From: Paraurantiacibacter namhicola
Lineage (GTDB): Bacteria; Pseudomonadota; Alphaproteobacteria; Sphingomonadales; Sphingomonadaceae
Assembly: GCF_001687545.1 (NCBI RefSeq)
Contig: NZ_CP016545.1
Coordinates: 2,465,001-2,529,000, forward strand
DNA length: 64,000 nt
Reading direction: 5' to 3'
Positions 21,607 through 26,075 of this stretch are shown in pieces (position 1 is the stretch's first letter; the number at the start of each line of letters is the position of its first letter). The translations under genes and the position numbers were made by a program. The notes beneath the pieces are model-generated. The model was not told where the DNA came from. It made no database searches and was given only the letters and a program-made list of their open reading frames with translations.

Positions 21607-22422
21607 TTATCGCTCCAGCCTTTCGGTCAGGATGTGCGGCGTCGCCATGCCGAAGGCGAGCGCGGCGGCCCACACCAGCGGCAGAATGCCGACAAGCACG
21701 AACGCTGCAATAGCGAGCGCGCCCAGCATGGCAGGGATCGCGGTCGGCGCGGCTGCCCGGATGACTTCGCTCCAGCCAAAACGGCGGGCCTGCGCGTGCT
21801 GCATGGGCCAGGCATGGCCCAAGAAGAAGGCGAGGCCCGTGGCGAGGACCGGGTGCAGCAGCGCGGTGGCGGCGACGCAGGCGATAAGCGACCAGCCATG
21901 CGGGCGCCTGCCCAGCGCGGCGATAGCCAGCACCAGTCCCGCGCCGCCTGCCACTGCCAGCACCAGCATCCACGGCTGCGGGATCGGCTGGCCCAGCAGG
22001 GCCGCGAAAATCTCTGCCGTGGCTTCACCTTGCCAAAGCGCGCTGCCGCCCACGGCGGTGAGCGCGTAGGCCCAGCGGGCAAGCCTGTCGCCGCCAGCCG
22101 AGTGCTGGAAGTGCCAGGCAGACAACAGCAGGAACAGCGTCAGTCCCGCCAGCGGCATTGCCAGGAACAGCGCTGCCACGGCCAGACCCGCCAGCACATA
22201 AGCGGCCGCATCGAGCAGGCGAAAGGCGCGCAGCGTGCCGGACTGGTGCTCCGCCGCGCCATGCGCGAAACCGGCGAGGAAGAAGCCGATGCCAAGCGCG
22301 ATAGCAGCGCCTGTCCCGGCCAATTGCGCCAGTGCGGCCAGTGACAGCAGGCCGAACGACAAGGCGGCCCCGCGCCCGAAAGCACGGAGCCGCCTGTCAT
22401 GATCGGCCGGAGCCGAGGCCAA
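21607..22422 (-). CDS. blh: Brp/Blh-type beta-carotene 15,15'-dioxygenase
   Basis: Splits beta-carotene into two retinals, the chromophore for the rhodopsin encoded just upstream. 271 residues, polytopic, with the family histidine motifs GFAHGAAEH, SAWHFQH and FLGHAWPMQH, and the C-terminal ATPHILTER. These histidines bind the iron. The start is TTG 22422, only 3 bases past the rhodopsin stop, with GGGGA 8 bases upstream; no in-frame ATG lies nearby. The rhodopsin-blh order and spacing mark a two-gene operon. No crt carotenoid genes lie in the window. Confidence 0.92.
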   Translation of the reverse strand: MASAPADHDRRLRAFGRGAALSFGLLSLAALAQLAGTGAAIALGIGFFLAGFAHGAAEHQSGTLRAFRLLDAAAYVLAGLAVAALFLAMPLAGLTLFLLLSAWHFQHSAGGDRLARWAYALTAVGGSALWQGEATAEIFAALLGQPIPQPWMLVLAVAGGAGLVLAIAALGRRPHGWSLIACVAATALLHPVLATGLAFFLGHAWPMQHAQARRFGWSEVIRAAAPTAIPAMLGALAIAAFVLVGILPLVWAAALAFGMATPHILTERLER

Positions 22423-22425
22423 GGA

Positions 22426-23304
22426 TCAGTCCCCGCGCTGCGAAGCGACCTTGGCACCAAGCGGGCTGGTCTCCAGCGCCTCTGCTGCCGGGACGTAGCC
22501 TTCCAGCGCGCTGCGACGCAGCAGGTAACGCGACAGGATGATGCCGTAGATCAGCTTCGTGGAAATATCCGCGATGCTGAAGAGCAGCTGGCGCACCACC
22601 ACGATATCGCCGGTGAAGCCCAGCTGCGGCAGGGCGTAAGCGATGGGATAGAGGCCCCAGGTCGCCAGGAAGTAATACCACAGGTTCTTGGGCCAGTTGA
22701 CCAGCTGCGGCGGGGAATTGGCGATGGCTGCGGTGATCACGCCGCGCACTTCGATGATCAGCCAGACGAAGAAGATCGTGGAGATGACGCCCCAGATATT
22801 CAGGCGGCTGAAGTCACCCGTCTCGCCGAACTGTCCGTAAAGGCCGGTCCAGATCATCAGCACGGCCGGGATGGACATGCGGATCGCGCGCTTGTGCAAA
22901 TCCGGTCGCGAAATCGCGAAAGCGATCGGCAGCTGTGTCAGCAGGATCGGGACGGTGATGGTCCAGTTGCCGTAGCGGAAGGCGTTGGTGAATATGCTTT
23001 CACCCTGCATCGGCACGTAGCTCGCGCCCACCAGAGTGTAGGCATCCTGCCAGGTGGTAAATTCGCGCAGCAGGCTGAGGCCGGCACTCGCCATGACGAT
23101 GGCGGACATGATCGGCACGATGCGATAGCGCGGAGCCAGCTGCATGCTGGTCATCAAGAAATACAGGATGAAGGCGAAGTGCGCGCCGTAGCTGACCATC
23201 AGGATCAGCGATCCCATGGTGTACTGGCCGCTGGTGAGGGTCACGAGATTTTCGATATTGCCGACCGCATTTGCTGCGACCTCCGGACTGACAGGTAACT
23301 GCAT
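22426..23304 (-). CDS. Microbial rhodopsin with N-T-Q motif, probable light-driven chloride pump
   Basis: 292 residues, seven membrane helices. The retinal Schiff-base lysine is Lys250, with counter-ion Asp246 four residues before it (SIADISTKLIYG). In helix C the sequence RYGNWTITVPILLTQ places Asn113, Thr117 and Gln124 where proteorhodopsin has Asp97, Thr101 and Glu108. Family knowledge: NTQ proteins of Fulvimarina pelagi and Nonlabens marinus are inward chloride pumps, while NDQ proteins pump sodium and DTE-type proteins pump protons. Losing both carboxylates argues against a proton pump. Arg110 is kept. Start ATG 23304 has GGGA 7 bases upstream; an in-frame ATG at 23358 would add 18 hydrophilic residues. 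It is followed by blh and is divergent from the DUF2254 pair. Confidence 0.92.
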   Translation of the reverse strand: MQLPVSPEVAANAVGNIENLVTLTSGQYTMGSLILMVSYGAHFAFILYFLMTSMQLAPRYRIVPIMSAIVMASAGLSLLREFTTWQDAYTLVGASYVPMQGESIFTNAFRYGNWTITVPILLTQLPIAFAISRPDLHKRAIRMSIPAVLMIWTGLYGQFGETGDFSRLNIWGVISTIFFVWLIIEVRGVITAAIANSPPQLVNWPKNLWYYFLATWGLYPIAYALPQLGFTGDIVVVRQLLFSIADISTKLIYGIILSRYLLRRSALEGYVPAAEALETSPLGAKVASQRGD

Positions 23305-23439
23305 GGCATTTTCCCAAGCGCGACCGTGTTGATCGGCCTGGTGCATGGTCGCCTGCATCCGCCGTTTGATGGCAACTAAAGATGCGCATGCACGTTTAGG
23401 TTCCCGATCCGACCATGATTTGAAGCAGGGAACAGGCCA

Positions 23440-24756
23440 GTGAAGGACGATATTTCAGGGCCTTACCTTGGGCGGCTGGGTTGGCTGGCGCACAGGATCT
23501 TCGCCAGCTATTGGCTGCTTCCCGCGGCCGGCGTGCTGCTGGCCTTACCGCTGGCGATCCTCGCAGTGACGCTGGACCGGCATGCCGGGACGGACTGGCT
23601 CTTGTCGAACGGGCTTAGCCCGGTCTCGACGGCGGATACGGCCAAGGACCTTGTCGGCGTCGCCATCGGTGTGAACGCGGCCTTCATCACGCTGTATTTC
23701 TCGCTGACACTGCTGGTGCTGACCGTGGCCAGCAGCAATCTGGGTGTGCGGCTGGTCGATCGCTGGCTGGACAAAGGGCTGGTGCGCGTATCGCTCGCCG
23801 GCCTCAGTTTCACGCTCGTCTTCTCGCTGGGCGCGATGGCGGCAATCGATGCGGACGCGCCGCTGTCCAGCCAGCCACTGGGCACGATCAGCGCGGTGAT
23901 AGCCCTGCAGGCGCTCAACGTCGTGATGCTGACCGTGGCGCTCCACGATCTGGGCCGCACCGTGTTCATCGACCGGTCGATCCACCATCTTGGGCGCGAA
24001 GCGGCGCAAGGGCCGGTGGCCATCGCGGCGACAGATCCATTCCACGGCGACTGGTCGCTGGGAATTGCCGCCCCGCGCGAAGGGTATGTGGAAGGTAACA
24101 ACCTGCATCATCTCAGCCGCCTGCTGGGCGAGGATGGCGGACGCGTGCGGATCTGCGCTGCGCCCGGCCAGCATGTGATGGAAGGCGAGCCGATCATGCT
24201 GCTGGAGCAGCGCCGCGACGATGAGCGCCAGTTGCTGAAAGTCCTGCCCATCGGAGACTTCCGCAGCGACGGCCAGGGCGCGGTCTTCCGGATCCGGCTG
24301 CTGGTGGAAATTGCTGCCCGCGCACTCTCCCCGGCAGTAAACGACTTCTACACCGCGATCGCTGCGGCGGACCGCATCGCCTCTGCCATGGCGGGCCAGT
24401 TCGGCAGCTGGGTCGATGAAGACATGATGCCGGCCTTCGCTGACGACCATCGCATAGAGCTTCCCGGACAGGATTTTCGCGGCTTGTTCGAGGATCCGCT
24501 CAACGCGTTTCGGCAGGCTGCCTGCCAGTATCCCTCCGTCACCATCCGCATGGTGGACAATTACCACCGCCTGATCGACCGCTGCGAAGGCGAAGGCCGC
24601 CCGGCGGGCCTGAGACGGTTCCTTGTGCAGATGGCGCAGGACCTTGCGGAACATGGCGAGGCCTCTGCGGGTTATGACTGCGACAGGGCGGATATTACGG
24701 CCGCCTTCAAGAAGATCGCCGGGCCGGAAGGCCGCAGAAGGGCCAACGCCGCATGA
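23440..24756 (+). CDS. DUF2254 membrane protein, first of a tandem pair
   Basis: 438 residues from GTG 23440. Four N-terminal membrane segments at about residues 22-44, 68-92, 112-134 and 142-165, then a soluble C-terminal domain (about 195-430). The conserved family segment RALSPAVNDFYTAIAAADRI lies near 290-310. DUF2254 proteins are predicted inner-membrane proteins of unknown function. The stop overlaps the next start (ATGA), so the two are coupled. Divergent from the rhodopsin operon across about 135 bases. Start choice is weak: the upstream GGAACAGG is a poor ribosome site. Confidence 0.8.
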   Translation: MKDDISGPYLGRLGWLAHRIFASYWLLPAAGVLLALPLAILAVTLDRHAGTDWLLSNGLSPVSTADTAKDLVGVAIGVNAAFITLYFSLTLLVLTVASSNLGVRLVDRWLDKGLVRVSLAGLSFTLVFSLGAMAAIDADAPLSSQPLGTISAVIALQALNVVMLTVALHDLGRTVFIDRSIHHLGREAAQGPVAIAATDPFHGDWSLGIAAPREGYVEGNNLHHLSRLLGEDGGRVRICAAPGQHVMEGEPIMLLEQRRDDERQLLKVLPIGDFRSDGQGAVFRIRLLVEIAARALSPAVNDFYTAIAAADRIASAMAGQFGSWVDEDMMPAFADDHRIELPGQDFRGLFEDPLNAFRQAACQYPSVTIRMVDNYHRLIDRCEGEGRPAGLRRFLVQMAQDLAEHGEASAGYDCDRADITAAFKKIAGPEGRRRANAA

Positions 24757-26075
24757 TCGCATCCCTGCGCAATTTCTGGTTCAAGGCGCGCGCCAGTTAC
24801 TGGTTCTGGCCTGCCCTGTTCTCACTGCTTGCGCTGGGGCTGGCCCTGACCACCGTCTGGCTGGACCGGACCGGGCAGGCTGCATTTCTGAACGATGTGG
24901 AATGGCTGCAACCTGCGCGGCCCGATGGTGCCAGCAACATGCTGACCGTGATCGCAGGATCGATGATCGGGGTCGCCTCGACGGTGTTCTCCATCACCAT
25001 CGCTGCCGTCGCTTATGCCAGCGGCAATTACGGCCCGCGCCTGCTGACCAATTTCATGGAGAACCGCGGCAACCAGCTGTCGCTCGGCGTCTTCATCGCC
25101 ACATTCGTCTTCGCCATCACCGTGCTGCGCTCCGTACGCGCGGAGGACGAGGCGGGCTTCCTTGAAACGCAAAGCAATGCGCTGCCCGGCTTCGTGCCGC
25201 AGCTGAGCCTGCTGACGGCTTATGTCCTGATGGGCATTTCCATCATGGTGCTGGTGTATTTCCTCAATCACGTGCCCAGCTCCATCCGCATCAACTCGGT
25301 GCTGGAAGGGATCGGGCGGCGGCTGATTGCTGACATCAAGGTGCTGTTCGATAGGCCAGCACGCGGCGAAGTCATGATGGAAGTGCCGGAAGGCCGCGCC
25401 GTCACGGCGACCGAGACGGGATATATCCAAGGCATCGACTACGAGCGCCTGCACCGCATTGCGGAAAAGGCTGGCGGCCACATCAAGCTGGCGGTCCGCA
25501 CCGGTGATTTCGTGCATCCGCGCATGCCGCTGGTGCAATGGTCAGACGATGACGGCCTCGACGATCTGCACGATACGGAGGTGCGTAAGTGCATGACGCT
25601 GGGCGGAATGCGCACGCCCGCGCAGGACCTTCACTTCCTGATAGACGAGCTGGTGGAGATAGGCCTTCGCGCGCTCTCCCCAGGCATCAACGACCCCTTC
25701 ACCGCGATCACCGTGCTGCATTGGCTGGGCGCCGCCACGGCGGAGCTTGGCCGCCGCAACCTCGACCGGGCGTTTGGCGACAATGACGATCCCGAGGAAG
25801 ACCGGATCTCGCTGCTGTCGGACGATTACGCCCACTTCCTAAACCGCGGCCTTGGCACGATGCGCAGCGCGGTCGCGACCAGTCCGCCCGCGACGATGGT
25901 GATGTTCGACGTGCTATCCAACGCTTCGACCACGCTGAATGACGAGACGCGCCACGCGCTTCTGATCAAGGAAGGCGAGCAATTGGTCGCGCAGGCACGC
26001 GAACACCTGTCCGGGCCGGACCTGCATGGGGTTGAGGCACGCCACCAGTCCTTCCTGCAGGCGATGGACGCCTGA
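24753..26075 (+). CDS. DUF2254 membrane protein, second of a tandem pair
   Basis: 440 residues, the same architecture as its upstream neighbour: four N-terminal membrane spans, then a cytoplasmic domain with RALSPGINDPFTAITVLHWL. The two copies align along their length but differ widely, so the duplication is old and a heteromeric complex is plausible (inference). The region YASGNYGPRLLTNFME after the second span is typical of the family. It starts with a 4-base overlap. It is convergent with the DUF885 gene, 19 bases apart. Confidence 0.85.
   Translation: MIASLRNFWFKARASYWFWPALFSLLALGLALTTVWLDRTGQAAFLNDVEWLQPARPDGASNMLTVIAGSMIGVASTVFSITIAAVAYASGNYGPRLLTNFMENRGNQLSLGVFIATFVFAITVLRSVRAEDEAGFLETQSNALPGFVPQLSLLTAYVLMGISIMVLVYFLNHVPSSIRINSVLEGIGRRLIADIKVLFDRPARGEVMMEVPEGRAVTATETGYIQGIDYERLHRIAEKAGGHIKLAVRTGDFVHPRMPLVQWSDDDGLDDLHDTEVRKCMTLGGMRTPAQDLHFLIDELVEIGLRALSPGINDPFTAITVLHWLGAATAELGRRNLDRAFGDNDDPEEDRISLLSDDYAHFLNRGLGTMRSAVATSPPATMVMFDVLSNASTTLNDETRHALLIKEGEQLVAQAREHLSGPDLHGVEARHQSFLQAMDA

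Follow-up and report, generated by a model that had tools for sequence, protein, structure and literature searches.

The window, the whole stretch of 64,000 nucleotides analysed here, lies on the single contig of 2,591,679 bases that makes up its genome (G000), and contains, in this order, nadA, a 100-aa ORF with no Pfam match, blh, a rhodopsin gene, the divergent DUF2254a and DUF2254b genes, DUF885 and EamA (Table 1). The interval assigned to the rhodopsin in the initial annotation (22426-23304) was correct, with the gene on the minus strand, where the 292-aa reading frame is uninterrupted from 23304 down to 22426; translation of the plus-strand frame across the same interval gave no rhodopsin. 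A longer ORF for the same gene has its ATG at 23358, and the start at 23304 was preferred on the grounds that related genes have, by eye, a similar spacing between their start codons and a conserved NIEN segment.

Table 1. Position and strand of the features at the rhodopsin locus (window coordinates)
Feature	Position	Strand	Details
blh/brp-type beta-carotene 15,15'-dioxygenase	21607..22422	minus	271 aa, TTG start; Pfam BCD
NTQ rhodopsin (ClR type)	22426..23304	minus (23304 -> 22426)	292 aa; R110, N113, T117, Q124, D246, K250
Conserved element GGAACCTAAACGTGCATGCGCATCTTTAGTTGC, 33 bp	23372..23404	minus	67 nt 5' of rhodopsin ATG; candidate promoter or operator
DUF2254a membrane protein	23440..24756	plus, divergent from rhodopsin	Pfam DUF2254 6.2e-53
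DUF2254b membrane protein	24753-26075	plus	tandem with DUF2254a

The rhodopsin matched the Pfam profile Bac_rhodopsin (PF01036) with an E-value of 1.7e-28 and a score of 100.1 bits against a cut-off of 24.6. Its helix C (residues 110-124) reads RYGNWTITVPILLTQ and places N113, T117 and Q124 at BR positions 85, 89 and 96, and the retinal lysine K250 is kept together with the Arg/Asp pair R110/D246. Minus-strand translation and alignment reproduced the residue numbers first given for N113, T117, Q124, D246 and K250, and the NTQ triad described with them is no chance reading, since R-N-T-Q-D-K was present in every extracted homologue of at least 60% identity; the next sequences below that level were the NDQ protein L085 and DTE proteins (motif reading excluded L052, L053, L058, L074 and the partial PF01036 matches of the family sample). 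An archaeal-type halorhodopsin was ruled out, the motif being N-T-Q and not TSA. An AlphaFold model based on 32 aligned sequences showed seven helices, with a mean pLDDT of 90.8 and a pTM of 0.86, and a fold search of the PDB with this model returned NM-R3/ClR at ranks 1-16, ErNaR at ranks 17-19 and KR2 next. A sequence search of the PDB gave ClR as the best match (E 5.2e-52, 180.5 bits) and ErNaR as the second, with a score close to that of NM-R3 (E 4.8e-49, 170.8 bits).

A tblastn scan of species genomes identified 19 loci with relatives at 74-82% identity, whose hosts are Erythrobacter, Qipengyuania, Aurantiacibacter, Parapontixanthobacter, Actirhodobacter, Citromicrobium, Sphingomonas baiyangensis and Fulvimarina pelagi HTCC2506. 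The F. pelagi NTQ rhodopsin (L024) was 71-74% identical to the window protein (74% by tblastn, 72% and 71% in other comparisons), and is presumed to be the published FR from its organism and motif rather than from an accession match. Beyond these relatives, 16 of 385 genomes in a sample of the class had a match, all except the window's own at no more than 30% identity, and a plasmid search returned four records, all below 60% identity, the closest being from Jannaschia sp. M317 (50.8% identity, with three pieces covering 43% of the query). A maximum-likelihood tree was constructed from 81 rows, six of them references and KR2 absent. Left out of it were L001 and L027 as duplicates of the window, L021 and L110 for their short frames, loci L031-L049, and further copies of identical sequences. 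The window protein paired with L104 (99/72), and this pair formed a 95/89 group with F. pelagi, L009 and L018. The F. pelagi rhodopsin therein lies inside an otherwise sphingomonad NTQ clade, which suggests that the NTQ gene may have been transferred. All NTQ rows and the NM-R3 ClR were joined at 95/76; the NM-R3 branch is long (2.42) and the join is of a kind flagged by the tool, and for this reason the motif and the F. pelagi homologue carry more weight in the case for a chloride pump than the NM-R3 join does. ErNaR and L085 (NDQ) were separate at 100/97, and the DTE proton pumps fell in another clade. The comparison with FR, NM-R3, NDQ and DTE rhodopsins that had been proposed as a check of the anion-pump reading therefore placed the window protein with F. 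pelagi, outside the clades of sodium and proton pumps.

These results bear directly on whether the protein could be a proton pump whose motif is unusual, or could move protons when chloride is absent. It belongs to the same fold family as the proton pumps (PF01036), and DTE pumps are present in the same bacterial family; however, both proton-path carboxylates are replaced (N113 and Q124), and the DTE sequences of the family are only 24-29% identical to the window protein and are placed in a different clade, so that proton pumping is improbable in the extreme.

In order to compare the chloride site, 26 positions of NM-R3 were taken from the available text of PMC4999514. The window protein is identical at 19 of these (including N98, W99, T102, R95, D231, K235, Q109, N92, Q143, E146, R223 and Q224) and differs at seven: F15Y, K46R, A50V, S91T, T228S, S234T and an Ile to Leu change at 242, a position for which PMC4999514 names Thr, so that the numbering used here is possibly off by one. 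NM-R3 has just two direct chloride ligands, N98 and T102, which correspond to N113 and T117; the entry-cavity residues N92, Y96, Q143, E146 and R223 are identical (N107, Y111, Q158, E161 and R238), as are K235, R95 and D231 (K250, R110 and D246). At the level of residue identity, aromatics occupy all three positions of the 3 omega motif (Y28/W85/Y96, compared with F15/W72/Y83 in NM-R3). Overall, the window protein resembles NM-R3/ClR (PDB 5g28, 5b2n and 9jow) in fold (TM 0.86/0.95 for the best entry), in its direct chloride ligands and in the 3 omega aromatics, but shares 39-40% identity with it in the fold alignment and differs at the seven positions listed above. According to the part of PMC4999514 available, pumping fell by half or more in most NM-R3 mutants of N98 and T102, and chloride pumping was abolished in T102D.

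The last of these mutants also weighs against an NDQ-type sodium pump (NaR), which would move sodium outward and has Asp at the middle position of the motif. Such a pump is suggested by the ErNaR chains being the second-best solved relatives by sequence, by the 31-33% identity of the NDQ protein L085, and by N, Q and N92/Q143/R223-type residues that are common to NTQ and NDQ pumps; ErNaR itself (Erythrobacter sp. HL-111, PDB 8qle) is of the same rhodopsin group and has the N and Q of the triad. However, the required Asp, present in ErNaR, is Thr117 in the window protein, the effect of T102D (PMC4999514, as far as its available text goes) indicates that this position strongly divides the two kinds of pump, and the tree groups the window protein with the NTQ protein of F. 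pelagi and keeps ErNaR and L085 apart, making outward sodium transport very unlikely.

Taken from sequence comparison, the window rhodopsin is very probably an NTQ/ClR-family pump that moves chloride (halide) inward, driven by light. The reading as a light-driven anion pump in the initial annotation is thus supported by the tree, by the 71-74% identical F. pelagi homologue and by the retention of both NM-R3 chloride ligands. By analogy with FR and the solved NM-R3, chloride would enter from the outside and be bound by N113 and T117 next to the protonated Schiff base; following photoisomerisation it would be released to the cytoplasm past Q124, the residue that replaces the proton donor. Gly172 aligned to G178 of GR, which we take to be the fenestration position for a carotenoid antenna. 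An antenna of this type on the window rhodopsin is possible and, if present, would not be new; PDB 9jow is, according to its title, a myxol-bound NM-R3 structure, and a literature search for the carotenoid antenna brought up nothing on the subject.

NTQ pumps are already known, also in this order of bacteria, and the window protein adds one ordinary member. In the accessible text of PMC4585134, FR is described as an NTQ chloride pump with a chloride-dependent colour change, and ClRs are reported from Citromicrobium bathyomarinum, Citromicrobium sp. JLT1363 and Sphingopyxis baekryungensis. The Citromicrobium and Sphingopyxis ClRs are NTQ pumps from the same order as the window, the comparison with Citromicrobium having been made through a MAG copy (L022, 77-79% identity) and not through the published ClR accessions. 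The F. pelagi gene is like that of the window in its motif, its identity of 71-74%, the blh directly downstream and its place in the 95/89 group, but has an ABC1-kinase gene upstream instead of DUF2254, and the upstream element is unmatched. Four NTQ rhodopsins absorb at 518-534 nm, with that of Sphingopyxis baekryungensis at 518 nm (PMC7979833, available part), and the consulted portion of PMC4831467 lists NTQ isolates and links Leu or Met at the tuning position to green absorption; by analogy with these published pumps, and with Leu121 at the tuning position, the window rhodopsin is probably green (about 515-535 nm). The hint that a chloride pump would be unexpected in these heterotrophs is weakened by the published Citromicrobium, Sphingopyxis and Fulvimarina pumps and by the NTQ genes, identified by motif, in 23 of the 397 genomes sampled from the window's family (57 of the 397 have a PF01036 match).

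The blh gene begins 3 nt past the rhodopsin stop codon, and the two are probably on the same transcript. The blh protein passed the cut-off of Pfam BCD (38.6 bits against 28) and scored 61.8 bits with NCBIfam TIGR03753, below the cut-off of 95.25; H54, H104, H203 and H263 are invariant among 25 aligned blh proteins. Phytoene synthase-like, crtI-family and CrtY genes are located near 964-968 kb of the genome, with the crtI-family and CrtY models and Pfam SQS_PSY scoring above their cut-offs and the phytoene synthase scoring 291.9 with NCBIfam CrtB, below the cut-off of 480. Retinal is probably produced by the downstream blh from beta-carotene that the crtB-, crtI- and crtY-type genes at this distant locus supply. 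A decayed NTQ rhodopsin was found in the relative G026 (L112, 5452-5849 and 5861-6684) beside a blh whose matches lie in two frames, the rhodopsin remnant comprising residues 3-77 and 232-291 with an internal deletion and a change of frame. Pump and retinal enzyme are decaying jointly in this relative, as would be consistent with one function.

The decayed copy in G026 also raises the alternative that the window gene no longer works, or that its product is a chloride-binding light sensor. Against this, the window copy is intact, every chloride-site residue is kept, blh is adjacent and no transducer gene was found among the ten neighbours scanned, and both readings are highly improbable.

DUF2254a is defined here as matches of at least 49% identity (the next matches being at 35-39%). 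Of the 18 named loci that are informative, 17 have it next to the rhodopsin, F. pelagi being without it and L012 too short to judge, and it lies divergently beside the ClR-blh pair in 13 of 14 sampled genomes, the window included, and elsewhere in G740; the two sets overlap, with L009/L111, L015/L100, L021/L110, L022/L108 and L023/L098 being, by their length, the same contigs. A DUF2254 match of the 35-39% class is located beside the NTQ gene L086 in G735. A Fisher test of ClR-blh against DUF2254a (14, 0 / 9, 374) gave 3.7e-20, counting genomes as independent, which they are not. In five distinct genomes (L018, L021 (= L110), L022 (= L108), L106 and L107) DUF2254a, rhodopsin and blh occur together, with nadA and DUF2254b absent from the available stretches, suggesting that DUF2254a, rhodopsin and blh are able to move as one set. 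DUF2254a stays with the ClR-blh pair at different places in the genome as well.

DUF2254a also occurs without an intact NTQ gene (9 of 397 genomes, at 49-56% identity). The ninth of these is G026, and the other eight have the order nadA, DUF2254a, DUF2254b, in which no rhodopsin remnants were detected beyond two matches of 20-24 residues (E ~0.5) in L134. In three of these eight, L127, L130 and L132 (G534, G549 and G465), about 2.2 kb separates nadA from DUF2254a, where others carry blh and rhodopsin. A second NTQ clade of 60-66% identity (L087, L090, L092, L093, L094, L096, L097, L099 and L101) is also found at the nadA locus. Its genes (e.g. L087, L090 and L093) have nadA on one side and DUF2254b on the other, and no blh or DUF2254a was detected at these loci; four genomes (G504, G717, G740 and G780) have both NTQ types. 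DUF2254a as an obligatory partner was not supported, F. pelagi and the 60-66% NTQ group having no neighbouring copy and the nine genomes above having DUF2254a but no intact NTQ gene. The predicted fold of DUF2254a is confident (pLDDT 90.2), and a Foldseek search against the PDB gave no match at E <= 0.001. In the literature, as far as the available texts go, DUF2254 appears in work on protein knots (PMC11184937) and in a Salmonella domain screen. A functional link between DUF2254a and the ClR-blh pair is put forward here as a hypothesis.

Alignment of the intergenic stretches showed that the conserved upstream element consists of a GGAAC-CTAAC-N13-TTTGGTTGC-like sequence, an imperfect inverted repeat of the GGAACCTAAC-N13-TTTGGTTGC type. 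A loose pattern for the element matched the window as well as 25 of the 45 NTQ loci searched (23 of 40 with five doubled contigs taken once), always upstream of the rhodopsin, this pattern having been drawn from the same loci in which it was counted and these loci sharing ancestry rather than being independent events. The pattern was unmatched at, among others, L009, L015, L018, L023 and L024, and in all eight rhodopsin-less DUF2254 loci. An EcfG-type promoter, the consensus of which we take to be GGAAC-N16/17-CGTT, was dropped as a reading of the element, the spacing being 21. A genome-wide regulon was not supported with this definition of the pattern: there is a single match in the window's genome, and the 43 matches in 352 genomes of the family include 10 at NTQ loci, compared with about 69 matches (hand count) for a reversed-pattern control. 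Overall the loose pattern does not exceed chance frequency, away from NTQ loci it is background, and position alone speaks for the element.

A profile search of the window's genome gave one PF01036 match, the window rhodopsin, and no Photo_RC match for a photosynthetic reaction centre; a heliorhodopsin search had no match in any genome, controls included, and is hence uninformative. As neither a further PF01036 rhodopsin nor a reaction centre was found, the organism would take in light energy only as inward anion movement, as membrane potential and chloride gradient. Among the 23 NTQ genomes of the family, 14 have no PF01036 match listed beyond the NTQ gene, and seven of these 14, the window's genome included, are also without a Photo_RC match, a figure that assumes that the PF01036 and Photo_RC searches drew the same 397 genomes, the Photo_RC-negative genomes not all being listed. 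Other NTQ genomes carry additional rhodopsins. L043, L044, L045 and L046 have Asp-Thr in helix C and, in helix G, Pro instead of Asp ahead of the retinal Lys, and presumably resemble xenorhodopsins; their genomes (G468, G492, G508 and G019) also have an NTQ pump. The genome of the NDQ sodium-pump gene L085 (G688), which is close to ErNaR, has an NTQ pump as well.

It is conceivable, if rather doubtful, that the chloride pump is the sole phototrophic machine in a dedicated module with its retinal enzyme, a divergent DUF2254a partner and an operator of its own, in which DUF2254a would, for example, deal with the anion taken up or with the membrane potential that builds up as a result. Such a module, if true, would open a light-driven membrane potential to study without a light-driven proton pump.

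The first descriptions of NTQ pumps date back about a decade, and the use of the window rhodopsin lies in its setting, a one-contig genome of 2.59 Mb with one PF01036 rhodopsin and no reaction centre found. In Nonlabens sp. YIK11, a chloride pump is present beside a proton pump and a sodium pump in one cell (PMC4831467, in the part consulted), and the contribution of the chloride pump itself is hard to see there because of the other two. In the window's genome and the six further sampled genomes of the family, effects of light on growth, ATP or survival could be attributed to the anion pump alone, and such genomes bear on what bacterial chloride pumps are for.
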